In this document: positions 2,897 through 33,079 of the stretch, one piece after another
Layout of the letters: every line of letters begins with the position of its first letter
Position numbering within the stretch: the stretch's first letter is position 1
Source: a virus
Direction: 5' to 3' (one strand)
DNA: 34,250 nucleotides
Virus record (IMG/VR): IMGVR_UViG_3300035698_010279
Coordinates: 1-34,250 of that record
Position numbers and translations under genes: made by a program
The notes under the pieces: model-generated
What the model was told of the DNA's origin: nothing
The model's database searches: none
The model's input: only the letters and a program-made list of their open reading frames with translations

Positions 2897-3667
2897 TTAC
2901 AGCACCCTCTCCAAAAATCCCCAGATCGTGGAGACCGGGATAGCGAAGGCCGGCCCACCGCTGGACCCACAATTCACTACTCCGAGGAGCCTCCCATTGA
3001 CATCGACCAAGGCCCCTCCGGAGTTTCCTGGGCACACCAGTGAGTCTGTCTGGACCATACCCTTGTAGATCATCTTCCCAAAGGTCACCAGGACGCGCTC
3101 CTGGCCTCGGAAGGCCCACCTGCTCATCTTCACACTAACCGTCCTGTCAAGCCCGGAGACGATCCCCCTGGACACCGAGTGGGTCAACCCAAGGGGAGAT
3201 CCAAGGACCAGGCAGGTCTCCCCCAGCATAGGCCAGGTCGAGAAGATGATAGATTTCAAGTTCTTGGGAGGGTTAACAATCTGGAGGAGGGCCAGATCCA
3301 CGTCGATATCACTGGCAAGGAATACGGCCTTGACCACGGACAGGTCCCACAGGGTGACCTTGTAGTCCCTGGCAGTGGGCTCCGTCGTATCGTCGGCCAC
3401 ATGCCAATTCGTCAGGACCAGGCCACCCCTGTTAATGACGATGCCCGAGCCCTGCCATTTCGCTGTGTAGGCCCACTCATTCTCCCCGTAGGTCATTTCC
3501 ACGTCGATCCTGACGATGGAGGGCATCGTGGAGGCGCACACGTCCGTTGTGACGTTCCTCCGGCTGTATCTAGGGTCTTCACCCTCAGTCATGCCCAGGA
3601 CCACACACGCCATGCCCATGAGCACGACAAAGATGGCTGCCAGGTTCGTTCCAGAAGACATTCTCAT
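2897..3667 (-). CDS. HtrA/DegP-like trypsin-fold serine protease, exported or membrane-anchored
   Basis: The 256-residue protein begins with a signal-anchor-like hydrophobic segment (about residues 9-26) followed by a single S1 protease domain. The catalytic triad is visible: His89 in TNWHVADD, Asp124 in DVDLALLQI and Ser216 in CPGNSGGAL. LGSPLGLTHSVSRGIVSGL matches the HtrA family pattern before the catalytic Ser. There is no PDZ domain, so it is shorter than DegP/DegS. Paired Cys residues (Cys212, Cys233) could form a disulfide outside the cytoplasm. The start at 3667 has AAGGAG 6 bases upstream and overlaps the preceding gene by 4 bases. Being exported, it probably acts on envelope or periplasmic proteins rather than as the head protease, which is a separate gene at 23436-24374. 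Confidence 0.85.
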   Translation of the reverse strand: MRMSSGTNLAAIFVVLMGMACVVLGMTEGEDPRYSRRNVTTDVCASTMPSIVRIDVEMTYGENEWAYTAKWQGSGIVINRGGLVLTNWHVADDTTEPTARDYKVTLWDLSVVKAVFLASDIDVDLALLQIVNPPKNLKSIIFSTWPMLGETCLVLGSPLGLTHSVSRGIVSGLDRTVSVKMSRWAFRGQERVLVTFGKMIYKGMVQTDSLVCPGNSGGALVDVNGRLLGVVNCGSSGGPAFAIPVSTIWGFLERVL

Positions 3668-3900
3668 TTTCTTCTCCTTGCGAGGGCTTTTTCCACCCTT
3701 GTATTCAGTTCGCCGTTCTTCCACCGTCCGGAGCACGCTAATTCCTCCGACTCGTCACAGTATTCTTTCCAGTGAGCATCGCAGAGCCCGTGAGGGTCTC
3801 CGGCTACCCAGAGAATAAGGTAGGCACTCTTTTTGCACCGAGCCATCCCACAGATGTCAAGATCGAAATCCAACTTGCTCCTCCTCTCCTTCCGGTTCAT
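3664..3900 (-). CDS. Small Cys/His-rich protein, possible zinc-binding
   Basis: A 78-residue protein with CGMARCKKS near residue 17 and GLCDAHWKEYCDE near residues 38-50, a Cys/His spacing that could bind one zinc ion. The C-terminus is basic (KALARRRK). The start ATG at 3898-3900 has a modest purine-rich upstream region. It overlaps the protease gene by 4 bases and begins inside the end of the preceding membrane protein gene (different frame). No family was recognised. Confidence 0.6.
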   Translation of the reverse strand: MNRKERRSKLDFDLDICGMARCKKSAYLILWVAGDPHGLCDAHWKEYCDESEELACSGRWKNGELNTRVEKALARRRK

Positions 3901-8030: not shown

Positions 8031-10835
8031 TTAGATCCTATTCATTGTAAGGGTTACTGGGTCACTGGTATATCCACCTCGAACGTTGTAGACTCGAACC
8101 TTGAACAGTGCGGGTTCTCCACTGAAGTCACTTACGAGGGTTGCGTTTGAATACGTGTAGGTTATCGCCTGGCTTATGTTCACTTCACGCTTGATTACGT
8201 CACCGGAGTCCAGGAACTGAATGATGAAGTCACCATCCACTGCACTGACATCTGTTCTTTCACCTGCGCCCTGAAGGCCAGCTCCAGTCCCGGTAGTCAG
8301 GGTGGACATATAGGCCCAGTCGAACACAAAGTTCTCGCCGGTGTAGAATGCAGGGACGCAGTTACGAGGAAGAGAGGCTCGCAGGTTCAGGGGAGCCATC
8401 GGTTTCACCCCCTTGCCGATCAGCGTGCCAGTCATGGCTGGGACATCTGCCAGAGTGTGTTCATGCACGGAGCCCCCATAGGGCATTGCCTTCAGGTAGT
8501 AAGTATCCCCAGGGACGTAAATGCCAGTGTTGAAAGCAGTGAACTCGCTCTTGTTGCAGATCATGAACATGTCGTCAGCGGCATGATCCTGAACCGAAGT
8601 ATCATACCTCGCGCGGATCACACCGTCCATTCGGTAAGTCACACCTGACACATGGACGATCTCCTGAACGAACAGGATCTCTCCTTGGATGAAGACGAGC
8701 TGATCACCCCTCCTCCAGGCCGTATCATTACTTGACAGGTCCTGGACAACTGCATCGTAATCCGTCCCTACATAGGTGAAGGTGGGTCCGGTCGCAACGA
8801 TTCCCAGGGAGGTGTCCGGCAGGGCATCCAAGAGCTTTCCCCCGAGCCCAGGATAGTAGTCCTCCTCAACGAAGGTGTAGTCCGTCCCATCCTCTGACAG
8901 GTAAATGTCTGCGCCTGCGATCCTGTCGTGCCTCCGGACCCTGGAGCACCCAAGCCACATCTCATCTCGTAGCATGGTCATATGCTCTGGGAGTTCGATA
9001 AGCGCAACCAGGGAGTCAATGGCCCAGGAGTCATTGGATTGGGAGGTGTAGAAGCCATCACTGTGGGCAAAGGACGCGGCTGCCACACCAAAGATATCCG
9101 ACATGACGGTAAGTTTTACTTTACTGGAGTTCGGTATGCCCTCCACTTCGAGGATACGCATCACTTCATCGAACCCGTCGATAGTGACGCACTGGGACGG
9201 GAGTAGGGTCCTGGCAGACCTGCCGCAGTGGAGCTTGATGGAGGAGTGCTTCGCGAGAACCTCCTGGGACTTCTTTTCTGCAAGTATCCCTGCAACCTCC
9301 ATGCACACTGCGATTGATAGCTGGACCTCCTGGGCGTTCTGGTAGCTAACCAGCGATGCAACACCATCGTTGCCTACCGAGATGGTTGTGTCTGCCCAGT
9401 TGTTGGCGATATCCTTGAACACGAACAGAACCTTGCTCGGTCGCTGTTCGTCTGTGAACTTGATAACTTCAGGCAGGGGGTCGAGGATCATGTCCTCATC
9501 TATGTGATCAAGTGGGCTCCCAGGCTCATCAAGAGTGGAGAAGGCCAGCTTCCCTGTGGACGTATCGAGATACAACTGGACGCTCAGGTCTTGCAGCCCG
9601 AGAGACAGGACCTCTTTGGCCGTCCTACCCTGTCGCGCTGCCCAGGATGTGTAGACATCAAGATCGGTCCCGAGGGCGTTCTCGTAATACTCCCCGAGGT
9701 CCTCCAGGCTGTCAGTGTCCCAGAAGGACTTATCGAACCCTAGCCCGGTCGGCCAATCCTCAAACAACATGTCGTAAATCGCATGGGCAGGATTCACACC
9801 CTGCGAGGTATAGTCCCTGCCGAGCAAGTCGGCCCTGCCGGTTTCGCCTGTTGCAGATATCCCGCCATAGGGGAAGATCCGGATCACTGGGCGGCCCAGC
9901 CACACGCCTGTTGTAGATGTTTGCGAAGAATAAATGCTGTAACTCTTTACGGTGTAGTCTCCATCGAGCGTTGAGCTGTTTGTTACGGTAACCTTGTCGC
10001 CAACATTCAGGCGGAACTCATCTGGTTTATACTCTGCCAGAACAGTCGGCTCCGACATTGGAGACACCTCTAGGTATCCTGCACCTTCAGCACCAGTGAA
10101 GGTGTTTGTGATCGGGTGCCAGGTCGGGAGGGCGTTGTCGTAGACATTGACCTTCTCGCTAACGATCCCAGCAGATAGGTTCCCAGACGGAGACTTGACG
10201 ATATCGTAGTGGAGGGTCCCCCAGGTTGCCCCACTGACCTCTGCGCCTCTTGGGACGGTGGCAATGAGCTTATCACACCAGACTATATAGCATAGCCCAG
10301 GCCACCTCGATGATACCCCCATACCTGTTGCGAGTGTAGAATCTATCGGCTGGCTGTCTTCTCCCCAGTAGATCCTGAAACCCTCCAGGCCAACTGAAAT
10401 CAAGCTACCGGATGGAGTGTTCGAGCTGTTTAGGTTCCCTGTGAACCAAGGTTTATCGTTTTCGTAAATGGTAGTAAGTTCGCTCACAGGACCTACAGCG
10501 AGAGCGTGAAACCCTCTCTGCATATACATCTTTCGTTTCGTGTAGTTCCCCGTAGGAAAATGGCTACCCTTTTTCTTAATGACTTGGAAGCCATCCTGGA
10601 CCCATGCAAACACCCCTCCAACACGGGCAGGACCAGTGATCCATGCAACATACGCCCCTCGCCTTGCGATGTTGGATTCTATCTCTTGGATGCCACTGTG
10701 CTTGATCTGGTTGTCCATGATGGCGGAAAACGTTATGGCCGCCGCCATGGATACAGCAAATAGAATGAGGGTTACCAAGAACCCTGGGTAAATGAGCAAC
10801 TCTCCTGGCAGGAACTGGGGAATATCAAATATCAT
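8031..10835 (-). CDS. Tail tip / central fibre protein (lambda J or GTA gp15-like)
   Basis: A 934-residue protein at the position of the tail tip protein. The middle (about residues 345-600) contains the tail-hub pattern seen in J-like proteins, for example GVNPAHAIYDMLFEDWPTG and DEDMILDPLPEVIKF. The C-terminus from about residue 800 looks like a fibronectin type III-like beta domain (MAPLNLRASLP ... VRVYNVRGGYTSDPVTL). Unusually, it starts with a strongly hydrophobic helix (about residues 14-40, FLVTLILFAVSMAAAITFSA), which could reach the host membrane during DNA entry. Its start overlaps the upstream gene by 4 bases. The protein would cap the tail and contact the receptor or guide membrane penetration. 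Confidence 0.72.
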   Translation of the reverse strand: MIFDIPQFLPGELLIYPGFLVTLILFAVSMAAAITFSAIMDNQIKHSGIQEIESNIARRGAYVAWITGPARVGGVFAWVQDGFQVIKKKGSHFPTGNYTKRKMYMQRGFHALAVGPVSELTTIYENDKPWFTGNLNSSNTPSGSLISVGLEGFRIYWGEDSQPIDSTLATGMGVSSRWPGLCYIVWCDKLIATVPRGAEVSGATWGTLHYDIVKSPSGNLSAGIVSEKVNVYDNALPTWHPITNTFTGAEGAGYLEVSPMSEPTVLAEYKPDEFRLNVGDKVTVTNSSTLDGDYTVKSYSIYSSQTSTTGVWLGRPVIRIFPYGGISATGETGRADLLGRDYTSQGVNPAHAIYDMLFEDWPTGLGFDKSFWDTDSLEDLGEYYENALGTDLDVYTSWAARQGRTAKEVLSLGLQDLSVQLYLDTSTGKLAFSTLDEPGSPLDHIDEDMILDPLPEVIKFTDEQRPSKVLFVFKDIANNWADTTISVGNDGVASLVSYQNAQEVQLSIAVCMEVAGILAEKKSQEVLAKHSSIKLHCGRSARTLLPSQCVTIDGFDEVMRILEVEGIPNSSKVKLTVMSDIFGVAAASFAHSDGFYTSQSNDSWAIDSLVALIELPEHMTMLRDEMWLGCSRVRRHDRIAGADIYLSEDGTDYTFVEEDYYPGLGGKLLDALPDTSLGIVATGPTFTYVGTDYDAVVQDLSSNDTAWRRGDQLVFIQGEILFVQEIVHVSGVTYRMDGVIRARYDTSVQDHAADDMFMICNKSEFTAFNTGIYVPGDTYYLKAMPYGGSVHEHTLADVPAMTGTLIGKGVKPMAPLNLRASLPRNCVPAFYTGENFVFDWAYMSTLTTGTGAGLQGAGERTDVSAVDGDFIIQFLDSGDVIKREVNISQAITYTYSNATLVSDFSGEPALFKVRVYNVRGGYTSDPVTLTMNRI

Positions 10836-11236
10836 TTTATGCTCCTGAAGATACCATTACACACCTGTAGAGAGTCCACCACTATCCCGGACATCTCAAC
10901 ACCAAAGTTCTGCTTCCAGAAATAGAGGGCGTTTTTCCTACCAGAGACGACTCTGATCTCATCATCCATACCTGGAGGGCCTGAGAGGAGGATAATATCC
11001 CCCGGTCGAATCGGAAACCTGTCCCCGTCTGCCTTAACTGGCTCCAGGTCGAGGGCTTTCTGGATCTTGGAGGTCTTAAACTTGGGGCTGATTTGCTGCC
11101 CCCTCAAGCGACCAACAACAGATGCAGCGAATTCCTTGCTGCCCTTTGCTGCGAAGGAATCAGCTATGGCCTGGTTGACAGCCTCTTCATGTCCGTTTGG
11201 AACCCACATCCAAGGCATCTCAGTATGGTGAAACAT
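10832..11236 (-). CDS. Small tail hub-associated protein
   Basis: A 134-residue protein located between the L-like hub protein and the tip protein, the slot held by an NlpC/P60 peptidase (K or GTA gp14) in related phages. No Cys-His-His catalytic arrangement typical of NlpC/P60 is seen, so a peptidase call is not supported. The segment FPIRPGDIILLSGPPG suggests a small beta domain. It overlaps both neighbours (1 base and 4 bases). Role in tip assembly is inferred from position only. Confidence 0.6.
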   Translation of the reverse strand: MFHHTEMPWMWVPNGHEEAVNQAIADSFAAKGSKEFAASVVGRLRGQQISPKFKTSKIQKALDLEPVKADGDRFPIRPGDIILLSGPPGMDDEIRVVSGRKNALYFWKQNFGVEMSGIVVDSLQVCNGIFRSIK

Positions 11237-19795: not shown

Positions 19796-20650
19796 TTACG
19801 ACTGGCTCGGGTCACTCACGATGGTCAGATACGGACTGTCGGTGTCGGCAGCCGAGTTCTTGTTCGCGGTTCCGGTGAGAGTGAGGGTTCCCCACTCATC
19901 CGAGATCAAGGAGAGGTCTCCGTCAGCAGACAGCGAAACCTTGTGGAAGTTGTATTCGATCCACTTGTCGTCGTCGGCAGGGTTTTCCCCGACGTATTTG
20001 AGGGCACCTTCGAGCAGGGAGTTCTTAAGGGTGCTTACGGTGTGAACGGATGCTGCAGCAGTGAGATTCGTTGCAGTATCCACGTCATACGACCCAGCGA
20101 CCATATCACCCCCCTCCACGACAAAAATGCGCCCAAGATCGGAATCGACTTCGAAGTCAGTGTTTTCGACCATGGCAGATCCGCCACCGGTCGGCTCGAT
20201 GGTCACCGTTCCGATATCGTAGATCCTCTTGTCCATGATGTTACTGTCGGGCTGGCCTGTGGAATCCTCGTAGAGGTCGATCCAGACACCCTGTTCGGTG
20301 ACGGTTACGTTGGCCGCGCCGGTGATAGCGGTGCCGCCTTCGTTGAACCTGGAGCCCGAATCACCTGAGAAAAACATCGCGAGATTCTCAAAGTTCAATT
20401 CGTCCAGGGTGATGGAAAGCTGGATCTCCTGGGAGACCACAACCTCTTTGTCGGTGAGCTTCAGACCTTCTCTGGAGGACTGGTGCTTCAGTTTTTCGGT
20501 TTCGATGGTGATGTTGAACTCAGGTGCGTTACCGAGGTCACGCCACTCATTTGGCATGTCATCCGAGTCCAGTTCAGAAAAATACAGTTTCCCGCGACCA
20601 AGCTGATAGTCGCTGGTATCCGGCTTGCCGGTGGTGTTCAGACCAGGCAT
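19796..20650 (-). CDS. Major tail tube protein
   Basis: A 284-residue beta-rich protein with the pattern of siphophage tail tube proteins: an N-terminal YQLGRGKLYFSELD, then GNAPEFNITIETEKLKHQSS, and repeated beta strands with acidic loops. The start ATG at 20648-20650 has GGAGAAAG closely upstream. It lies between the U-like gene and an intrinsic terminator, followed by the G/T chaperones, which is lambda V order. The product polymerises into hexameric rings to form the tail tube. A C-terminal extra beta domain (from about residue 225) may decorate the surface. Confidence 0.82.
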   Translation of the reverse strand: MPGLNTTGKPDTSDYQLGRGKLYFSELDSDDMPNEWRDLGNAPEFNITIETEKLKHQSSREGLKLTDKEVVVSQEIQLSITLDELNFENLAMFFSGDSGSRFNEGGTAITGAANVTVTEQGVWIDLYEDSTGQPDSNIMDKRIYDIGTVTIEPTGGGSAMVENTDFEVDSDLGRIFVVEGGDMVAGSYDVDTATNLTAAASVHTVSTLKNSLLEGALKYVGENPADDDKWIEYNFHKVSLSADGDLSLISDEWGTLTLTGTANKNSAADTDSPYLTIVSDPSQS

Positions 20651-24514: not shown

Positions 24515-25903
24515 ATGAGTAAAAGCAGTAAAAAGAAGAAGACCGACTCCATGGTCTCCTTCATCAATCACTTCCACAACAAGCTGTATGGAGCCCGTGA
24601 CGTGTCCCTGACGGACGCGCTGTTCAAGATGGCTCCAGTGGATGGGGTATCCAACCAGGACCCCTCACAGGGCAGGAAGGGCCATCCATTCAATTTCTCA
24701 GCGGCACTTGACTTCAAGAAATCGAATGCCCATCACTCTACCTGCATCGAAACAAAATCTGAATCTACGGTTGGCCTGGGGTTCGCCACCGAAAAAGAGA
24801 AACGCGACAAGGCTGCACCAAAGTTCCCAGGTGGAATCCAGCCTCCACAGGAAGCCAAGGGTGTCAACAAGGAGGATGTCCAGGCCGACCGTAGACTTTC
24901 CAAGGCAGAGAACCTCCTTGACCCCCTCTGCTCGATCAGCATCCAGGACGTGATTTCCAGCGTGTGCGAGGACTACTGGCAGACCGGCAACGGTTACATC
25001 GAGGTGGTCCGGAACGCCTTCGGAGAGGTCTCTGGGCTCCATCACCTGCCTGCCAATTACGTCTATGTGAATGTGGAGGATGACTTCTACAACATGCACT
25101 ACGAGGTCCTGGGTGCGGGCCTGGGCAATGTCTTCACGTCCGGGGACCGGCTCTTTGCTGCCTTCGGTGACACGGAGAACTTCAAGACACGGAGAAAGGT
25201 TGCCGGAGACGTTCGTTCAAGTGAGGTCATTCACTTCCGTAAACCTACTTCCCAGTCCAGGTGGTATGGGGTCCCTGATTGGTTGTGTGGTGTCGCGGCC
25301 ATAGAGCTGGTCCAGTGCCTGCACCAGTTCCAGTATGACTTTTTCCAAAACAGAGCAGTGCCCGAATTCATGCTCTTCCTCCTCGGCCAGAACGTCGGGG
25401 CTGATAACTGGGAATCCCTCACCAGTTCACTCCAGGCCAACATGGGTCACGGGAACTCCCACAAGTCCCTGGTCATGAACATCACGGACCCGAACATGAA
25501 GATCCAGTTGGAGAAGCTGGCTCTCGACAGGGGAGGTGAGGATACCTTCAGTGACCTCAATGCAGGGCTGGCCCAGGAAGTCGTGACTGCTCACCGAGTC
25601 CCGCCGCTGCTCGCTGGCATCCAGATCCCAGGCAAGATGGGTGCGGCCAACGAGATCGTCTCCACCATGAAGGCGTTCCAGAGCCTGGTCATCGGCCCTG
25701 CCCAGAAGGTGTTCGAGACCGTCCTAAACAATACTCTCGGTGGAGACCTGGGCGTGAAGGGCCTGGCCCGAGGTGACTTCGAGTTCCGAAAGATCGTTGA
25801 TGAGATGGAAGTCGAGCAGATGGATACGGTCTCCAGGATGCGCCAGGAATTCGCTGGTCCCGAGAACGCTGGCCGCGACCCCAACAAAGGATTGAAGAGA
25901 TAA
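24515..25903 (+). CDS. Phage portal protein (PBSX/PF04860 type)
   Basis: A 462-residue protein with clear portal features: VCEDYWQTGNGYIEVVRN, LHHLPANYVYVNV, the conserved YGVPDWLCGVAAIELVQCL followed by FQYDFFQNRAVPEFML, and AHRVPPLLAGIQ. The N-terminus is Lys-rich (SKSSKKKK). The portal forms the dodecameric ring through which DNA enters and leaves. It is the only virion gene, with its downstream partner, on the plus strand, whereas other head genes lie on the minus strand from 24374. The ribosome-binding site is AAAAGG, about 8-10 bases upstream. Confidence 0.92.
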   Translation: MSKSSKKKKTDSMVSFINHFHNKLYGARDVSLTDALFKMAPVDGVSNQDPSQGRKGHPFNFSAALDFKKSNAHHSTCIETKSESTVGLGFATEKEKRDKAAPKFPGGIQPPQEAKGVNKEDVQADRRLSKAENLLDPLCSISIQDVISSVCEDYWQTGNGYIEVVRNAFGEVSGLHHLPANYVYVNVEDDFYNMHYEVLGAGLGNVFTSGDRLFAAFGDTENFKTRRKVAGDVRSSEVIHFRKPTSQSRWYGVPDWLCGVAAIELVQCLHQFQYDFFQNRAVPEFMLFLLGQNVGADNWESLTSSLQANMGHGNSHKSLVMNITDPNMKIQLEKLALDRGGEDTFSDLNAGLAQEVVTAHRVPPLLAGIQIPGKMGAANEIVSTMKAFQSLVIGPAQKVFETVLNNTLGGDLGVKGLARGDFEFRKIVDEMEVEQMDTVSRMRQEFAGPENAGRDPNKGLKR

Positions 25904-25904
25904 C

Positions 25905-26612
25905 ATGGGCAGGCTAATGAGAGGTCTGACGAGAAAGAGGATAGAGGTCTCAACGGCCTATATCCTCGCTCGTGCATTCAAGCACCGGGCAGGGTCCGAG
26001 TGTAGGTCACTGTCCCTCAGAATCGTTATCGACGGCATCAAACTCCGGCGCAAGTCCAGCGTCATCAACCTTCGGATCAAGCACCACTGGGCCAGGTCCT
26101 ACCATGATGGCTATGGTGGGAGCACAAAGCAGGTAGGATTCTGGGTCATGTTCCCGAAGGGCAAGGACCCTCGTAGACCTGCCGAGGCCCACCTTGAGAT
26201 CAGCAGGCGGCGCGTGCGGAAGTTCACTCCTGGAGAGGGTCGTGCTGCCAAGGCCAGGTTCGGCAAGGAGATGATCTTCTTCAAGAAGCGGAAGGCATGG
26301 AAGGGAGATCCATTCTTTGATCGTGCCACACTAAACTACCGGGCCGAATACGATAAAGAGGTTGGTGACATTCTGGATGCTGCTGTTCCAGCCCACCTTG
26401 ACAGAATTCTGGGTAAGGCCCTTGGTGTGAAGTTGTCTGGAAGCGCGAAGAGGGTTGACATGCGAGACTTCAAGCACCCCGACCCCCTCCGGCGACCTGG
26501 ATCATTCACTGTAGTTCCCATCTACTCCAAGACCAAAGAGACCACGATCTCACCGGAGCAGTGGAACATCATAAACGGCATGGGCTCAGGCACCGAGGAG
26601 CGCGAGGATTAA
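25905..26612 (+). CDS. Basic protein after portal, possible virion morphogenesis protein
   Basis: A 235-residue, very basic protein starting 1 base after the portal stop, with AAAGGA in the portal end as ribosome-binding site. The segment HHWARSYHDGYGG and a later KGDPFFDRATLNYRAEYD followed by a helix (AAVPAHLDRILGKALG) recall the layout of Mu gpG/HK97 gp10-like neck or tail-completion proteins (a Y-A-x-x-H-x-x-G motif, then R-P-F-F/L, then a terminal helix). The match is weak. It ends convergently on the RuvC-like gene. Its coupling to the portal suggests a head or neck role. Confidence 0.45.
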   Translation: MGRLMRGLTRKRIEVSTAYILARAFKHRAGSECRSLSLRIVIDGIKLRRKSSVINLRIKHHWARSYHDGYGGSTKQVGFWVMFPKGKDPRRPAEAHLEISRRRVRKFTPGEGRAAKARFGKEMIFFKKRKAWKGDPFFDRATLNYRAEYDKEVGDILDAAVPAHLDRILGKALGVKLSGSAKRVDMRDFKHPDPLRRPGSFTVVPIYSKTKETTISPEQWNIINGMGSGTEERED

Positions 26613-26620
26613 CCTCGCGC
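26600..26620. terminator. Hairpin over convergent stop codons
   Basis: A perfect 8-bp GC-rich stem GCGCGAGG/CCTCGCGC with loop ATTAA. The loop contains both stop codons: TAA of the plus-strand gene (26610-26612) and TAA of the minus-strand resolvase gene (26611-26609). There is no T-tract on either side, so it is not a standard intrinsic terminator; it may pause polymerase or protect both 3' ends. Confidence 0.5.
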
Positions 26621-27121
26621 CTCTCCCCATGCTGCCAACCCGATGGAATCGACTAAGTGGAGCCATTCACCTACCTTGAAGTCAAACGGTGCGTTCGTCG
26701 GGTAGGAGCCTGTAGAGGTCTTGGTATACTCCCAGCCGATGCGCGACAGAATCCTTGCTTGGTGGATGGGCTTCGGGACACTCTTCTTCCAGTCGCAGGG
26801 CCTGGGAATGACCAGGCTACCGGCGAACGGCCTGAGAATCCCAGCAACTGCCCCGGTCACCTGGGCGATCATAATGAGGCTGTTCGGATCGGCCCTGCCC
26901 CTGCCCTGGTATGCTTGCTGCCCCTCCACGACCAGAAGGAACTCCTTGCCGCAGGGCACCTGGTTCGGCAGGTCCTGAAGAGCCCATATCATCTCGCGAA
27001 CTGAATCCGCTCCCCTGAACTTCCTTGGGATGGAAACCACCCCCAGGCTCAGGACCTCCCCATCCTCCATGCAGCACCATGAGGTATCTTTGCTGTCGGG
27101 GTCAACTCCAATGACTCTCAT
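26609..27121 (-). CDS. RuvC-like Holliday junction resolvase
   Basis: A 170-residue protein with the RNase H/RuvC fold pattern: first strand RVIGVDPDS with Asp7, a central VVEGQQAY with Glu66, and a C-terminal HLVDSIGLAAWG with His155 and Asp158. Phage resolvases of this type cut branched DNA before packaging or in recombination. The start ATG at 27119-27121 overlaps the stop of the glycosyltransferase gene by 4 bases. It is the last gene of the minus-strand block and converges with the portal unit. Confidence 0.78.
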   Translation of the reverse strand: MRVIGVDPDSKDTSWCCMEDGEVLSLGVVSIPRKFRGADSVREMIWALQDLPNQVPCGKEFLLVVEGQQAYQGRGRADPNSLIMIAQVTGAVAGILRPFAGSLVIPRPCDWKKSVPKPIHQARILSRIGWEYTKTSTGSYPTNAPFDFKVGEWLHLVDSIGLAAWGEARG

Positions 27122-27885
27122 GCGAAATCCCTCTCCCACATCTTAATGTAGAAACTTGCGAACTCTTTGCCCATCCACTCCGTCAAGACTCTGAAATTCG
27201 GGTCCGGCAGGAACTTCTTTGGACGGTGCCCAACACCTATCCCACCACGGCCCGGTAGGCCCTTCATGCCGATGCAGGTATCCCGCAATGGCTCGTAGCA
27301 GTCTTGGATGTAAGGGTCGTTCCCTGTCACAGTCCACATCCTGGCATCGTATCCCTTGCTGCCATTATGGATACCTTGCTCAACCACCATCTTGAAGACT
27401 GCCATGAGGTAAGACCCAAAGGCTGTTGAGCACAGAGCACTGCCACGGTTACGGAAGATTCGATACGACTTGCTGGGCAGGTGGTAATACTTCTGCCACA
27501 CCGTTCCGACGATATCAGCGTGTTCAAGCCTCCGGCTGACATTCTCTAGATGAGTGTTTGAATACCAGTCGTCATCCTCACAGATGACGATGTTGGGTGA
27601 GGAGACCACATTCAGGGCCTTCAACAAGTTCTTGCCGAGGCTGACTGGACCTGAATCCCTCTTGACCGGCTTGCGACGGATGTAATAACAGGTGATCCCG
27701 TAGTTGGCAAGAGTGGAGTCCCCTACCTCAGCGAGTGCCCTGGGAGCCGCATTGGTCTCCCCGTCGTCCACCACTATCCACTCGATCTTCCCGGTGTAGG
27801 TTTGGTGTAGGAGGTTCCTGGCCAGGAACTTCAGCGTCTCATACCTATCCCCAGTGGGGGTGATCACCGTAATTGAATCGTTCAT
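27118..27885 (-). CDS. Glycosyltransferase family 2-like protein
   Basis: A 255-residue GT-A fold protein. The N-terminus TVITPTGDRYETLKFLARNL and IEWIVVDDGE are the nucleotide-sugar binding strands, and ICEDDDWY (residues about 102-108) is the metal-binding DxD motif. The C-terminal half has a GNDPYIQDCYEPLRD region and aromatic residues for an acceptor. The start at 27885 has AAAGGGGA upstream and overlaps the preceding gene by 4 bases. The acceptor is unknown: modified DNA, virion protein or host surface are possible. Confidence 0.82.
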   Translation of the reverse strand: MNDSITVITPTGDRYETLKFLARNLLHQTYTGKIEWIVVDDGETNAAPRALAEVGDSTLANYGITCYYIRRKPVKRDSGPVSLGKNLLKALNVVSSPNIVICEDDDWYSNTHLENVSRRLEHADIVGTVWQKYYHLPSKSYRIFRNRGSALCSTAFGSYLMAVFKMVVEQGIHNGSKGYDARMWTVTGNDPYIQDCYEPLRDTCIGMKGLPGRGGIGVGHRPKKFLPDPNFRVLTEWMGKEFASFYIKMWERDFA

Positions 27886-28589
27886 TTCAGTCCCCTTTCC
27901 CCCTTCTTCCACCCTCTTTTTCGATGCAGCTCCGGGGCCGGAGTCGTCGATTGGTGCTTATAGAATTTGAGGTAACGATTTTTTCTATAATGGCCATCGA
28001 AGTATTCAACTGTGATGTTGTGCTTGTGCATCGTGTAGTCCACTGACAGTTGATCTCGGATCGTCCAGAGACAAACTTCCTCCCACCAAGACTCCTGCCA
28101 GGCCCTCACCTTCTTGGTGTTCCTTCTGACGAAGAACCCGGTAGACGTGATTGCGTTCTGCTCGACCCACCCCTGTTTCCTGTAGTAGGCTACCTGGGCC
28201 TGTGCCAGCTCAAGCGGGATACCACAGTGGATACTCACCGCCTCTGCCTCGGCCTCTGCCCTGGTCCTGTGAGGGTGCTTGAACGCGAGGATGTCATGGG
28301 ACTGTGAGTGCCTCACTATCGAGTTGGTTGGATCTCTCACGATCTCGAACGACCCATCTAACCATGCGTAGATGTCAGCATCCGGGAAGAACACATGAGG
28401 TTTGATCTTCAAGAGCCTGGCCTGGAGCCTCGGGTGGTGCCAGGCTCTCGTTACGAAGACCTCCCATACCTTGCACTGTGGTTGGGGAGTGTCTGTGAAT
28501 GCGACGTATCTGACCTTCGGGTTCACGTCCAGTGGGTCCCTCAGTGGGTCAGTAGCTCCGTAGACGGCGGTGCAATAGATTAGCTTCAT
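27882..28589 (-). CDS. DUF616/TOD1-like glycosyltransferase-family protein
   Basis: A 235-residue protein with the pattern of DUF616 proteins: LIYCTAVYGATDPLRDP, VRYVAFTD, a WHHPRLQARLLKIKPH segment, DIYAWLDGSFEI (DxD-like at the metal site) and a later GFFVRRNTKKV. The family is related to glycosyltransferases. The start at 28589 has GGAG about 7 bases upstream and an ATGA overlap with the methyltransferase stop; a longer upstream start lacks support. It forms a translationally coupled series with the two flanking enzymes. Confidence 0.75.
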   Translation of the reverse strand: MKLIYCTAVYGATDPLRDPLDVNPKVRYVAFTDTPQPQCKVWEVFVTRAWHHPRLQARLLKIKPHVFFPDADIYAWLDGSFEIVRDPTNSIVRHSQSHDILAFKHPHRTRAEAEAEAVSIHCGIPLELAQAQVAYYRKQGWVEQNAITSTGFFVRRNTKKVRAWQESWWEEVCLWTIRDQLSVDYTMHKHNITVEYFDGHYRKNRYLKFYKHQSTTPAPELHRKRGWKKGERGLK

Positions 28590-29173
28590 TGCTTCTCCAA
28601 GCACAGCAATCCGTGTCCATACGGGAAGTGGAATTTGATCTTCCACTCTGGGTTGCAGACCATGAATTCGTCGATGGCCAATCGAATTCCATGGGTGTCC
28701 TTATCATGCACGGGGGTAACGCTCGGCTGCCTCTGCCACTTGCCTGTCTCTCCATCGGCTCCGTAGATGGCGAAGGAGATCGTGTCGTGGAAGACCAGGA
28801 ACTTCTGGGCCTGTTTTCCGAAAGTGCGGAGTTCGTAGTTCAACTGCTCGTAGGTGTGGAGGGAGTCGAAGAAGATCATGTCACACACAGGGATCTCTTT
28901 GATGTCCCGGATGTCACCCTCATGTAGTCGCCAGTCCTTCCCTGCTGCTCTCTTGAGTCTCCTGGCCTTGCCAGTTATCACGAGGTCCCAGGAGTAAAGT
29001 GTTCCATTGCATCCAAGAAGGAATGCTGAAGCACTTGCACCTTGTTTCACCCCGAACTCCACGACATTGGCACACTCCTTTGCGATGCGGCGGAGGGTTG
29101 GTAAGTGCTGTGCGGTGGCACACCCACTCCTCGAATATTCACCGAACAGTTCTGCAATCTTGTTGACGTTCAT
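28586..29173 (-). CDS. Class I methyltransferase (Methyltransf_24-like)
   Basis: A 195-residue Rossmann-type protein. VVEFGVKQGASASAFL (about residues 37-52) is the SAM-binding motif I. LYSWDLV corresponds to motif II with its acidic residue, and CDMIFFDSLHTYEQLNYEL is motif IV with the metal/catalytic DSxHxY pattern of family 24 (related to O-methyltransferases acting on sugars). FLVFHDTI follows. It overlaps both neighbours by 4 bases. It likely methylates a sugar or small molecule made by the adjacent glycosyltransferases. Confidence 0.78.
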   Translation of the reverse strand: MNVNKIAELFGEYSRSGCATAQHLPTLRRIAKECANVVEFGVKQGASASAFLLGCNGTLYSWDLVITGKARRLKRAAGKDWRLHEGDIRDIKEIPVCDMIFFDSLHTYEQLNYELRTFGKQAQKFLVFHDTISFAIYGADGETGKWQRQPSVTPVHDKDTHGIRLAIDEFMVCNPEWKIKFHFPYGHGLLCLEKQ

Positions 29174-29754
29174 GCTGGTCTCGCTTTCGACGGTCTCATG
29201 GCCATCAATGGTTTAAATGGTAGTGCAGGCAGGTTCGCGATGGGGGAGCAGTTGAACAGGCCGACTCCCTTGGCTGCCAATAGGTCTCTGTATACCTTGA
29301 GTTGCTTGTTGATCTTTCCTGCTGCCTTGCTCATGTGGTGGTCTCGCAGGAGGTCCATCCCGATGATGCCAATGTTCTTGGACCGGAATCGGTAGGCAAG
29401 ACCGATGGCGGCGAACGGGGATGTCATGAAGTGAGGTATGGGTCCCTTATCAAGGTCCCACTGTTCTGGCTGGAGATGTGTGAACTTCTTGGTCTCCAAC
29501 TTCGTGACCCCATACCTCACATGGGGCAGGAGCCAATCATCCTGGTGGCAGACATAGGCCCGGTTCGCTGGGGTGCCCTCAATCGTGTCTACCCGCTCCT
29601 GTGTGAACCTCCCGAGCTTGTCCAGCACGAGGAGGTAGGTCGGGCTCAGGAAGTCACCAACGTCATTTACGCCGATGGTGCAAAACTTCTTGAGCGTATC
29701 TGCTTCGTCTCTTGCACTCTTCCCGAGCCCGACAATGATGATATCGTAAGTCAT
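29170..29754 (-). CDS. Rossmann-like protein resembling DUF115/MptE-type
   Basis: A 194-residue protein. The N-terminal IIIVGLGKSARDEADTL is a nucleotide-binding-like strand-loop-helix, followed by IGVNDVGDF. The segment TSPFAAIGLAYRFRSKNIGI then IGMDLLRD matches the S-G-x-x-A-x-x-L-A-x-x-x-G-x-x-x-I-x-x-I-G-x-D pattern of DUF115/MptE-like and some sialyltransferase-like phage proteins. Substrate unknown. It overlaps both neighbours by 4 bases and belongs to the sugar-modification cluster. Confidence 0.5.
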   Translation of the reverse strand: MTYDIIIVGLGKSARDEADTLKKFCTIGVNDVGDFLSPTYLLVLDKLGRFTQERVDTIEGTPANRAYVCHQDDWLLPHVRYGVTKLETKKFTHLQPEQWDLDKGPIPHFMTSPFAAIGLAYRFRSKNIGIIGMDLLRDHHMSKAAGKINKQLKVYRDLLAAKGVGLFNCSPIANLPALPFKPLMAMRPSKARPA

Positions 29755-30260
29755 TCCTGGTTGTTCCGATCAAACATCGACTCCACGAGGTTCTTCGCCC
29801 AGATAGCCATCATGGCACGACAGAACACATGGCCGAGGTGATCCTCACTCGTGTCCCCCTCCAGGAACTTGTAGACATGCCGGACCAGGTGGTTGAGGTG
29901 GCTCTTGAGCGGAATGCCTCCGTTGGATTTCCAGTTGGAGTCCCCATACTTCTCTGCGCCATAGGCCAGGACCTGGGCCAGGTTCTTGATTGCCCCTGGG
30001 TCGATCAGGTCGAACCTCTCGGCCAGCTTGGATTGCTTGGCACCGTTTGGAAGGGTCTCCATCTCCTCGACGGGAGCCTCCCTTTTCTGGGTGATGTGAG
30101 CGGAGTGATCCAACCCTTTCGCGAGGTCGATCCCTATCACAGGATTGTCAGCCTCTATCTCCTCCTCCTGGCTGGGGGAATGATATCCACCCATGAAACG
30201 ATGCTGGTAAGGCAGTGGTGGGTGGGAGCGTGGGTCACGTTGCTTGTCTCTCTCGGTCAT
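29751..30260 (-). CDS. dATP/dGTP diphosphohydrolase N-terminal domain protein (DUF5664-like)
   Basis: A 169-residue protein. The first about 70 residues are low-complexity and polar. The core matches the phage dGTP_diPhyd_N/DUF5664 pattern: RFDLIDPGAIKNLAQVLAYG, AEKYGDSNW, then SHLNHLVRHVYKFLEGD and DHLGHVFCRAMMAIW. Such proteins are thought to alter purine deoxynucleotide pools. Two adjacent ATG codons (30263, 30260) follow AGGAG; the second has the better 7-base spacing. The promoter at 30296-30324 lies just upstream, so it opens the sugar-modification unit. Confidence 0.7.
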   Translation of the reverse strand: MTERDKQRDPRSHPPLPYQHRFMGGYHSPSQEEEIEADNPVIGIDLAKGLDHSAHITQKREAPVEEMETLPNGAKQSKLAERFDLIDPGAIKNLAQVLAYGAEKYGDSNWKSNGGIPLKSHLNHLVRHVYKFLEGDTSEDHLGHVFCRAMMAIWAKNLVESMFDRNNQE

Positions 30261-30745
30261 CATTTTTCTCCTGTTGTTGGTGGTTCTCTTATAAGAGTAT
30301 ACTCCACACATTTCCGGTTTACAAGTTTAAGGTCCAGATCCCACCCAACTTTGTATGTCCGGACCACAACCCTGTCGATCCAGTCCGGCAGCAGTCCACT
30401 GGCGAGGTCATACCAGTAACCCTTCCCAGGCTTGGTAGCGACGACCTGGAAGGTGCTTGCCAGGGTCGGCGAGGGGCCGATCAGGACTGACCCCCCAGCC
30501 TTGTAGAACACTTCGAAGGAGCACCTGCCAACGCGGTCCAGGCCAGCCTTCAAGATAACGTGGTCACTGTTCTTCGTCTTCGTGGTGTTCACTGCAATCT
30601 TCACGCTCCCGATGTTGGCGGCAGTGTCAAGAGGCTCGAAGATGTAGGTCATCCCTTCCCAGCCACCGATGGTGAGACCGGCGTTACCGAAGTAGAGGAG
30701 CACCCCGATGATGATCTTAACTTGCATTTTCCTTGAAAAGATCAT
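30260..30745 (-). CDS. Hypothetical exported/membrane-anchored protein
   Basis: A 161-residue protein with a short hydrophobic N-terminal segment (about residues 8-27, VKIIIGVLLYFGNAGLTIGG) that may be a signal peptide or anchor, followed by a beta-rich domain (GSVKIAVNTTKTKNSDHVIL, YWYDLASGLLPDWIDRVVVR). No family recognised. The start at 30745 has GGAGG close upstream and an ATGA overlap with the preceding gene; Met7 (30727) with AAGGAAA is an alternative. Its end contains a promoter for the next gene. Confidence 0.6.
   Translation of the reverse strand: MIFSRKMQVKIIIGVLLYFGNAGLTIGGWEGMTYIFEPLDTAANIGSVKIAVNTTKTKNSDHVILKAGLDRVGRCSFEVFYKAGGSVLIGPSPTLASTFQVVATKPGKGYWYDLASGLLPDWIDRVVVRTYKVGWDLDLKLVNRKCVEYTLIREPPTTGEK
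30296..30324 (-). promoter_or_regulatory. Sigma-70 promoter P3
   Basis: On the minus strand TTGTAA (30324-30319) and TATACT (30301-30296) are 17 bases apart and the spacer ends in GGAG directly before the -10 box. It lies inside the end of the 30260-30745 gene and would give a leader of about 30 bases before the diphosphohydrolase-like gene. The -35 box is weaker (4 of 6) than in the other two members of the family. Confidence 0.65.
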
Positions 30746-30999
30746 GAATCCTCCACTATACTTTTGGTCACTGGGTGAACTTTTACATTGTTGCCACCGT
30801 CAACGACGTGCTGGGCAAACTGTCTACAGAAGAGTAGGGCCTCGTGCCAACAGGTTGCTTGGTAAACTGCGAGGCTCTTTCCGTTGGCGTAGTTGGCTAC
30901 GACTGAGAAGAAGCCAGCCCCCGGCAGCATCTTCACTTTGAAGGCAGTCGGGCTCCCGATGTCTACTTCTATACCGTTCAGGTGTTTGAAAGTTGCCAT
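30742..30999 (-). CDS. Hypothetical small protein
   Basis: An 85-residue beta-rich protein with VKMLPGAGFFSVVANYANG and a helical CWHEALLFCRQFAQHVV; no family recognised. It starts 1 base after the DNA polymerase stop (TGATATG) with GGAGGAGA as ribosome-binding site and overlaps the next gene by 4 bases, so it is co-translated with the polymerase operon. Confidence 0.65.
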   Translation of the reverse strand: MATFKHLNGIEVDIGSPTAFKVKMLPGAGFFSVVANYANGKSLAVYQATCWHEALLFCRQFAQHVVDGGNNVKVHPVTKSIVEDS

Positions 31000-31000
31000 A

Positions 31001-33079
31001 TCACTTCTCCTCCAGTGGTGGTTCCCATGGGATTAACTTCCCGGCCTTATCGAAGACCGGCTCGGCCCGCTTGTCCCATCTCATCATTGCGGCTGCCTCT
31101 GTGGCTATGGGCACGTCCGTCAACACCTCGGCCATGGAGTTGTCCATGATCTCGCTGATCTTCAATGCTGCCTCATCCACCCGGTCGAGAGGAGCCTCGG
31201 CGATGACTTCATCATGGATGAATGCGAGGATGTTTATCCCCTTCAGATGACCTATCTTGGATGCCTTGACGGTATTGAAAACAGCCAGTTTCGCTCCCTC
31301 GGCTGAAGGGCTTTGCATGGACAGGCCATTGCAGGCGGCGCAGTAGGCTGCACCCCTTCTGAGCATCCCTCCAGGAGTCGTATACTTGTAGGTGTCTGGA
31401 CGCATGGGGTCCTCACACTGGTTGTTGATGTGCTTGAAGAACTGTGGCATCTCGGTGTAGGTCTGGAGCCAAATCTCCTTCATCATGGCGGCTTGGGCCT
31501 CCGTCATGTCCACACCGTAGGTTCCCTTGGCGAACGTGACGAGTGTCGCTGGCCCTAGTCCCCCAGGAAGCCCCAGGCCCACTGGCTTGGCGAACTTCCT
31601 CCAGTGCTTGAAGAAGGCTTTCTCCACCTTGTCGCCGGTCTTGAGCCCAAGGAATGCCTTGTAAATCGCGTCCGGGTCCTCTGCTCCGATCCTGGCGCAG
31701 TAGAGAGGGAAGATGTCGTCCAAGTGATATGCCAGTTGACCCCCCAGGTAGGCATGGAGGTCATACCCTGCCAGGAGCTTGTCCCGGTGAACGGACCTCT
31801 TGAAGAGCCCGAAAGTCTGGTGGGCGACGGAGCACAGTTCCAGCGCGGAGTAGTCAATACTGATCAGGGCGTGCCCTGGGCGGGGAATGAAGCACCCTCT
31901 GGCCCTCGGATCGACCTGTTGGATGTTGGTAGAGGGGTAGGGCTCCAGGCTCCCATGGGCGTTCCCATAGGACGACGTGCGACCTGTCTCCTTCAGGATG
32001 GAATAGTTCGGGTGAACCTTGTCAGCATTCAGCCTGGGCAGTTCCGTCCCGGCCAACCTCTGGAGCTTCTGCCGGTGTTGGTAGACCTTCAGGACAGGTG
32101 ACAGGAGAGCGAGTGGAATGATGGTAGATTCGCTGGCAGATACATTGCTCTTTTTGCCCTCTGTGCCATCGTTCGTCATGATCACTTTGAGACCATTGGC
32201 CTCACACACATCCTCAATGATGGAGTGGAGGACCTTCGTGTTGATCGAGGGCTTCTTCGCCTTCTTCAGCTTCGGGGTGCCGTCCTCATTCAGGGCACCG
32301 TTCTTGTAGGGCATGGGAGGTAATCCTGACCGGAGTATTCCAGCGTCCACCAGGGGCTGCATCTTCTCTGGGGTCAGCTCCTCAGCCAACTCGGCAGCCA
32401 GCTCATCCCTTGCCTCCCGGTCGATGTGTATTCCCGTCACGGTCATTTTCCTGAGAGCGAAGTCCGTGGCGGTCTGGAAGAACTCCGTGGCAGTCGTGGC
32501 GCACTGTTCTTCGATCTTCCGAACCTCCTGGGCCTGATACACTCCCATGGTGTTCTCGGCATCTTCCACAGCGTATTTATACGCCTCTTCTGGGTAGTCG
32601 TCGATCTTCATACCTTCCAACTCAGCATACCTGAGCCGCCAGATATCGTCGCCCTCCTTCTCGTCAGACCTGTCCATACCGAGGTATCTCTTCTCCAGGT
32701 CAGACAATGAATAAGAGAGCCTGCTGACTGCACCGTTCTCCATCTCCATCTTATCAATGGCTCCGAAGGTGGAGAGGTTGAGGAGCTTCTCCCTGATCAT
32801 CGTGTCTGTGATCTGGTCACGCCCTAGCTTCGCCCAGATGAGTGGCTCAAGGGACGGCCAGGTCTTGGCAATCACTGTCAGATCAAATGCAGCGTAATGG
32901 AAGACCAAGGTATCATCACCCTTGAACAGCTTCGTCAGGATCTCTAGGGTGTGGGGGTCGCAGTGTGCGCGGAGTTCTGACTGACCCTTGGAGTTGGCGA
33001 ATGAGACACAGATAACGTCCGGGGCAACCTGGTCTGCTGCCATGAGCTTGGTCTCTGTGTCGATGGTGATGATTTCCAT
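31001..33079 (-). CDS. Family A DNA polymerase with 3'-5' exonuclease, Leu762 type
   Basis: A 692-residue phage PolA without a 5' nuclease domain. The exonuclease has the DEDDy set: Asp7 and Glu9 in TIDTET, Asp66 in YAAFD, Tyr169 and Asp173 in YAVED. The polymerase has motif A (Asp409-Glu414, DYSALEL), motif B (Arg494 and Lys498 in RKFAKPVGLGLPGG) and motif C (HDEVIAE, Asp623 and Glu624). The residue equal to E. coli Phe762 is Leu502 and the Tyr766 position is missing (a two-residue shorter O-helix end). It starts with AGGAG 9 bases upstream, one base after the zinc-ribbon gene stop. It replicates the phage genome. Confidence 0.95.
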   Translation of the reverse strand: MEIITIDTETKLMAADQVAPDVICVSFANSKGQSELRAHCDPHTLEILTKLFKGDDTLVFHYAAFDLTVIAKTWPSLEPLIWAKLGRDQITDTMIREKLLNLSTFGAIDKMEMENGAVSRLSYSLSDLEKRYLGMDRSDEKEGDDIWRLRYAELEGMKIDDYPEEAYKYAVEDAENTMGVYQAQEVRKIEEQCATTATEFFQTATDFALRKMTVTGIHIDREARDELAAELAEELTPEKMQPLVDAGILRSGLPPMPYKNGALNEDGTPKLKKAKKPSINTKVLHSIIEDVCEANGLKVIMTNDGTEGKKSNVSASESTIIPLALLSPVLKVYQHRQKLQRLAGTELPRLNADKVHPNYSILKETGRTSSYGNAHGSLEPYPSTNIQQVDPRARGCFIPRPGHALISIDYSALELCSVAHQTFGLFKRSVHRDKLLAGYDLHAYLGGQLAYHLDDIFPLYCARIGAEDPDAIYKAFLGLKTGDKVEKAFFKHWRKFAKPVGLGLPGGLGPATLVTFAKGTYGVDMTEAQAAMMKEIWLQTYTEMPQFFKHINNQCEDPMRPDTYKYTTPGGMLRRGAAYCAACNGLSMQSPSAEGAKLAVFNTVKASKIGHLKGINILAFIHDEVIAEAPLDRVDEAALKISEIMDNSMAEVLTDVPIATEAAAMMRWDKRAEPVFDKAGKLIPWEPPLEEK

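Follow-up and report, generated by a model that had tools for sequence, protein, structure and literature searches.

We propose that four adjacent genes on the minus strand of a tailed phage genome (27118-29754) form a cytosolic glycan-assembly line, which probably decorates a virion protein. The genes lie in IMG/VR virus record IMGVR_UViG_3300035698_010279, the whole of which (34,250 bases) was analysed and is called the window below; it also holds a Cap_E-type capsid gene and genes for an XkdF-like protease, portal and PolA. An earlier sequence-only reading of the window had suggested that such genes build a methylated sugar and attach it to phage DNA, a virion protein or the host surface. 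That they do build and attach such a sugar finds support in the enzyme families, the catalytic motifs, synteny and fusions; among the three acceptors the evidence favours the virion protein, with DNA and host surface less favoured. More broadly, though with chances a little short of even, the set would belong to a widespread, undescribed phage system of protein O-glycosylation. Such a system would combine a single-domain Maf/MptE-fold initiator with glycosyltransferase family 2 (GT2), TOD1/DUF616 and O-methyltransferase enzymes, move between unrelated tailed phages, with its genes separate or joined into multi-enzyme fusions, sit mostly in head-tail modules, and place short methylated glycans on virions.

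Enzyme families, predicted fold and fusions

The genes named by the sequence-only reading are all present on the minus strand as it had mapped them; most have Pfam or PHROG matches, and the DUF115/MptE-like one is recognized through its relatives and fold. The four that concern us are:

29170..29754, minus strand: MptE/DUF115-like protein with a predicted Maf catalytic-domain fold, proposed initiating transferase
28586..29173, minus strand: Methyltransf_24 (MT24) S-adenosylmethionine methyltransferase, probably a sugar O-methyltransferase (PF13578, 26.2 bits; O-methyltransferase profile matches)
27882..28589, minus strand: TOD1/MUCI70 (DUF616) glycosyltransferase-like protein (PF04765, E 2e-11)
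27118..27885, minus strand: GT2 glycosyltransferase of GT-A type (PF00535, E 4.6e-9; invariant motifs)

Two of these proteins exceed the cut-offs of their Pfam families: GT2 scores 36.9 bits against PF00535 (cut-off 23.3) and the DUF616 protein 44.2 bits against PF04765 (cut-off 21.4). The GT2 motifs ITPTGDR and EDDD (acidic, metal-binding) are invariant in the group, as are the DUF616 motifs W..D and RDQ over 11 phage homologues. The GT2 profile matches several GT2 structures, the best in PDB being 5hea, the C-terminal N-acetylglucosamine (GlcNAc) transferase domain of dGT1 (Fap1), with E 1.9e-4. The DUF616 gene is the counterpart of the second of two DUF616 genes (DUF616b) found in relatives of the phage. 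The methyltransferase falls slightly below the PF13578 cut-off of 26.3 bits; its relatives confirm the family, and a profile built with them matches O-methyltransferases (best 3cbg, E 1.5e-5).

The MptE-like protein has no direct Pfam match up to E 10. It is linked to PF01973 (MptE-like), whose gathering score is 34.6 bits, by way of a homologue in contig L125 (13.9 bits) and a related fusion protein in L174 (26.5 bits, E 6.2e-6). Because AlphaFold on the single sequence gave a mean predicted local distance difference test (pLDDT) of 34, we used instead an AlphaFold2 model from a six-row alignment (the window protein and five relatives), with pLDDT 85.9 and predicted template modelling score (pTM) 0.86. 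Its best structural match is 5mu5, the motility-associated factor Maf (Z 14.4, 3.2 A, 180 residues), followed by archaeal MptE (Z 10.2) and GT42 sialyltransferases (Z 9-9.8); matches in a viral library include proteins named MptE-like. With 194 amino acids (aa), the protein corresponds to the Maf core, without the additional N- and C-terminal domains. Its DHH and TSP residues are conserved. It would work like the Pfam MptE members, though it stays below the PF01973 membership score, and we propose it as the initiating transferase.

None of the four enzymes has a transmembrane-like segment. There is no GtrA match in the window or its relatives (the contig is fragmentary), and the set includes no flippase, polyprenyl-phosphate transferase or membrane glycosyltransferase. 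Since no epimerase-family gene was found in the window or relatives either, we propose that nucleoside diphosphate sugars are taken from the host.

The same enzymes recur together in other phages. A scan of viral contigs with the GT2 alignment yielded about 75 further contigs, and at least one partner enzyme was detected by profile in 37 of 77 loci around homologues (two of them found with the MptE-like query), compared with 0 of 37 control phage loci (563 kb). Partners are also fused in single open reading frames (ORFs): MT24-GT2-DUF616 in L167 and L210, GT2-DUF616 in L155, L159, L192, L208 and L211, and MptE-GT2 in L168, L174 and L200. In L155 a Pfam MptE-like domain stands ahead of GT2-DUF616, which makes it an MptE-GT2-DUF616 fusion. 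Fusions of this kind argue strongly for a shared pathway. In Cellulophaga phage phi18:1 and cyanophage AG-345-L05, too, DUF616 and MT24-type genes form pairs.

The longest fusion proteins, encoded at 2772-6419 of L167 and 2682-6419 of L210, have 1215-1245 aa and consist of an N-terminal GT2 domain (a Pfam match in L167), MT24, a second GT2 and DUF616. Each would hold an entire glycan pathway within one polypeptide.

Acceptor of the glycan and alternative explanations

In the flanks of fourteen clusters the commonest families are major head protein, portal, head morphogenesis, maturation protease, major tail protein and tail terminator; other glycosyltransferases and methyltransferases are found there as well. 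An HK97-type capsid gene is detectable in 11 of 41 contigs and lies at most 1.6 kb from GT2 in 6 of the 11, a level of proximity reached in 11 of 20,000 random placements. A prophage of Stenotrophomonas sp. 278 (L228) has its MptE-GT2 pair placed behind portal (Pfam E 1.8e-63) and connector-like genes and ahead of tail genes. The methyltransferase-GT2-MptE group in a prophage of a proteobacterial metagenome-assembled genome (L231) is preceded by genes for the portal (E 8.9e-76) and for protease-like and capsid-like proteins. Head-tail gene names in these two loci, except portal, are read from sequence, and HK97-gp10 had no match near either of them. Linkage of the enzymes to genes of virion morphogenesis is seen in unrelated phages and in two prophages.

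We favour a virion protein as acceptor because of the Maf-like fold, the presence of soluble enzymes only, the lack of GtrA and of a detected thymidylate synthase, and the position of homologous clusters in head-tail modules. The virus particle, not phage DNA, would most likely carry the sugar. Several observations weigh against this. In the window itself the set is part of a replication operon, with several genes and about 4 kb between it and the capsid gene. The six capsid-adjacent contigs amount to about three effective lineages, since four of them are related (GT2 64-74% identical). No virion protein was strongly enriched in a scan for Ser/Thr-rich acceptors. The Maf-like fold also resembles MptE pyrophosphokinases and thiamin pyrophosphokinase. 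Some bacterial GT2 relatives (Rhodobacteraceae) are located in chromosomal loci resembling polysaccharide islands, so the enzymes are not exclusive to phages. Finally, we infer the acceptor from association only, and as the contig is a fragment, gene absences prove little.

One alternative is that the enzymes modify a host surface glycan, lipopolysaccharide (LPS) or capsule, during infection or lysogeny, with receptor masking or phage exclusion as the result. LPS modification normally requires membrane transferases and a flippase, and neither these nor a polyprenyl-phosphate transferase belong to the set, just as GtrA is missing from window and relatives. Homologous sets are situated within head-tail modules and the MptE-like fold is nearest to a protein glycosyltransferase, so that we regard a surface glycan as an unlikely target. 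What speaks for it is that some bacterial GT2 relatives share chromosomal loci with a nucleotide-sugar synthesis gene, and that cyanophage DUF616 homologues belong to large sugar clusters that also hold epimerases and fucosyltransferases and that PMC9602691 relates to cell-wall/LPS synthesis. LPS modification is also one of the options proposed for the phi18:1 glycosyltransferase (PMC11946311).

Production of a soluble or lipid-linked glycoconjugate, or modification of a non-virion host protein, would suit soluble enzymes with no visible acceptor, and we know of no enzyme assay for any member of the set. The repeated linkage of homologous enzymes to virion genes makes this very unlikely. The least probable explanation, in our opinion, is hypermodification of phage DNA with a methylated sugar for restriction evasion. 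T-even phages do glucosylate their DNA, and the set is placed inside a polA-RuvC replication operon, adjoining a nucleotide hydrolase. The hydrolase slot, however, is present also where sugar genes are missing, and homologous sets elsewhere stand in structural modules; the MT24 profile matches small-molecule O-methyltransferases, not DNA methyltransferases. The sequence-only reading had seen no hypermodification initiator in the window, and indeed no thymidylate synthase or hydroxymethylase homologue was found there, in five cassette-bearing relatives or in two sister phages; all of these contigs may be incomplete.

Glycosylation of a virion protein by the four enzymes would most likely proceed in three steps, for which we infer the transferase activity of the MptE-like protein, the order, the sugar identities, the methylation target and the acceptor. 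The Maf/MptE-fold protein would transfer the first sugar to Ser/Thr of a newly made structural protein. TOD1/DUF616 and GT2 would then lengthen the chain by one or two sugars from the host nucleotide-sugar pool, and the MT24 enzyme would O-methylate it. The structural protein would be modified before or during assembly. In close relatives with a second DUF616 protein and a GT-D-like transferase, the chain might be longer.

Operon structure and relatives of the phage

On the minus strand of the window the genes follow in the order polA - 85 aa - 161 aa - dGTP_diPhyd - MptE/DUF115-like - MT24 - TOD1/DUF616 - GT2 - RuvC-like. Besides the sugar enzymes, the region comprises:

31001..33079, minus strand: DNA polymerase A, operon head (PF00476 E 1.4e-16, PHROG 17 E 2e-52)
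30742..30999, minus strand: 85-aa gene in the ATGA overlap chain, no assigned family, common to most cassette-bearing relatives
30260..30745, minus strand: 161-aa gene of the same chain, ATGA overlaps at both ends
29751..30263, minus strand: dATP/dGTP diphosphohydrolase N-domain-like protein (ORF to 30311, likely start ATG 30263; PF18909 (dGTP_diPhyd_N) E 2.3e-17)
26609..27121, minus strand: RuvC-like Holliday junction resolvase, operon end (longest ORF to GTG 27139, likely start ATG 27121; PHROG 1770 E 1.1e-4)
25905..26612, plus strand: 235-aa gene, no assigned family, convergent with the operon and adjoining portal, kept in cassette-bearing relatives

The 161-aa gene has no family match and no homologue among the relatives; the 235-aa gene has no match in outgroups. 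Overlaps of four bases, as previously described, are confirmed at seven successive ATGA junctions from 30745 to 27118, a count that assumes internal ATG starts at 30263, 28589, 27885 and 27121. The chain extends upstream beyond the diphosphohydrolase gene and is separated from polA by one base. A private promoter, which the sequence-only reading had assigned to the cluster, was rejected: the number of promoter-like sites does not exceed chance in this region (4 found, 4.1 expected), the site next to the diphosphohydrolase gene (30324-30296, 9/12 matches) falls within the gene upstream, and the overlaps continue to polA. In base composition the sugar genes match the rest of the phage.

The four to five closer relatives (L123, L124, L125/L130, L126; PolA 48-51% and capsid 57-64% identical to the window phage) have the order nucleotide hydrolase - MptE-like - MT24 - DUF616a - DUF616b - GT-D-like - GT2 - RuvC - convergent gene - portal. 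Kept at 32-53% protein identity, this order indicates that the cluster is not a product of chance. DUF616a and the GT-D-like gene are missing from the window, where GT-D queries gave chance matches and DUF616a queries matched the single DUF616 gene only.

In sisters L007/L008 (capsid 43%, PolA 42% identity) the corresponding stretch reads polA - 124 aa - DUF6378 - RuvC and the slot has no sugar genes. L129 has DUF6378 there and L132 a short ORF only; in L131, a distant relative, the slot is occupied by a PAPS-reductase-family protein (10081-10896, E 1.4e-21), so the slot receives varied accessory genes. A RuvC-like gene accompanies polA in all relatives, whether the cassette is present or absent, and in the PolA tree cassette carriers are confined to one side (support 90/95). 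As hydrolase-type and RuvC genes occur without sugar genes in the sisters, the nucleotide hydrolase and RuvC are replication genes resident in the slot, and the sugar genes, four (six) in number, are a unit that was inserted and then conserved. Of the five genes formerly counted as a sugar set, MptE-like, MT24, DUF616 and GT2 are therefore retained; the diphosphohydrolase is rejected as a pathway enzyme, since sister phages have polA, a hydrolase or other small gene, and RuvC without sugar genes. The resolvase does end the cluster, as had been stated, and belongs to the replication block, not to the sugar pathway.

Between L124 and L125 the dN/dS ratio (nonsynonymous to synonymous substitution rates) of the sugar genes is about 0.12-0.45, the values being rough for diverged pairs with high dS. 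Identity is uneven: 94-96% for DUF616a/b, 47% for MptE-like and 52% for GT2. Both features point to purifying selection with gene exchange within the cassette. L130 is 99.8% identical to L125 until within GT2 and thereafter 97% identical to L124, which reflects either recombination at the cassette or an assembly chimera. The MptE-like gene of L126 (7202-7855) has an in-frame stop, due to decay or sequencing error.

Relatives in viral contigs were found with alignment queries, not with single proteins; single-protein scans of these contigs for close relatives gave nothing for DUF616, MptE-like or polA. Among annotated phages, a nucleotide-level search with the region and protein searches with GT2, MptE-like and MT24 gave no match (MptE-like up to E 10, chance matches only), and a polA search in bacterial genomes yielded no relative.

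Some further features of these genomes may be mentioned. Portal and the next gene (24515-26612 of the window) are on the plus strand, whereas the remaining head-tail module runs the other way, and the inverted portal is retained in sisters and relatives L007, L009, L011, L123-L126 and L129. A trypsin-like serine protease (E 8.2e-25) with a hydrophobic N-terminal segment is encoded at 2897-3736, near the end of the tail gene region, and the tail tube protein at 19796-20650. The contig of sister phage L007 (L040, 2832-4487) encodes, by eye, a 551-aa protein resembling arylsulfatase in the tail region.

Significance and comparison with known systems

Virion glycosylation is known experimentally in few phages, where it alters immune recognition. 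The signature described here (MptE fold, GT2, DUF616 and MT24, with fusions) would allow phage genomes to be screened for decorated virions. If our assumptions hold, it would point to a function of TOD1/DUF616 proteins in phages, and "DNA methyltransferase" annotations of MT24 genes adjoining such enzymes would have to be corrected. Which phages sugar-coat their particles, and why, becomes a question for mass spectrometry on available phages and prophages.

Maf flagellin glycosyltransferases represent a cytosolic type of protein O-glycosyltransferase. The window protein has the MptE-like catalytic fold in common with 5mu5 over 180 of its 194 residues, but it comprises the core domain only (the PDB chain has 632 residues), there is no flagellin, and it would act beside other transferases and a methyltransferase.

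dGT1 (DUF1792 and GT2) belongs to the pathway of the serine-rich-repeat protein Fap1 in Streptococcus parasanguinis (PMC5063993). The window GT2 profile best matches its C-terminal domain, and the GT-D-like gene of the relatives, directly upstream of GT2, reproduces the dGT1 domain order. This gene is not in the window, however, and its similarity to GT-D is weak (PDB E 0.22; Pfam GT-D-like PF22882 E 0.018). PF08759 (DUF1792/GT-D) had no match in ten relative and sister contigs in a weak search that returned no control match either, and no Gtf1/Gtf2 initiator was seen.

In Cellulophaga phage phi18:1 (Helsingorvirus), gp40 and gp41 form an overlapping MT24-DUF616 pair within the head module, whereas no MptE-like or GT2 homologue was detected there. 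gp40 (L002, 5540-6007) was annotated and published as a DNA methyltransferase; it is an MT24 protein whose gene overlaps that of the DUF616 glycosyltransferase, and its role on DNA is doubtful. Its authors do not decide whether the glycosyltransferase acts on LPS, on DNA or in regulation (PMC11946311). In T4-like cyanophages (S-SCSM1, AG-345-L05), sugar clusters likewise have DUF616 near MT24-type methyltransferases and GT2 enzymes, but these clusters are large and include nucleotide-sugar synthesis genes, and no MptE-like homologue was found in those loci; PMC9602691 treats cyanophage sugar clusters as cell-wall/LPS genes. From gtr-type O-antigen cassettes the set differs by having no GtrA match, in what is a contig fragment, and no transmembrane-like segment in its four enzymes.

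The closest parallel in proposed outcome comes from mycobacteriophages Che8, Corndog and Myrna, where capsid and tail tube proteins are glycosylated by enzymes that the phages themselves encode (Freeman et al. 2023, cited in PMC12363180). Glycosylation was shown there and is proposed here, and our set consists of an MptE/Maf-fold protein with DUF616 and MT24; the comparison covers the searches among annotated phages, which gave no match for GT2, MptE-like or MT24. Our literature search found no paper tying MptE-like proteins to phage glycosylation. The proposed process thus resembles virion glycosylation by phage enzymes, which is already known, and differs from it in an enzyme set that is, as such, undescribed.

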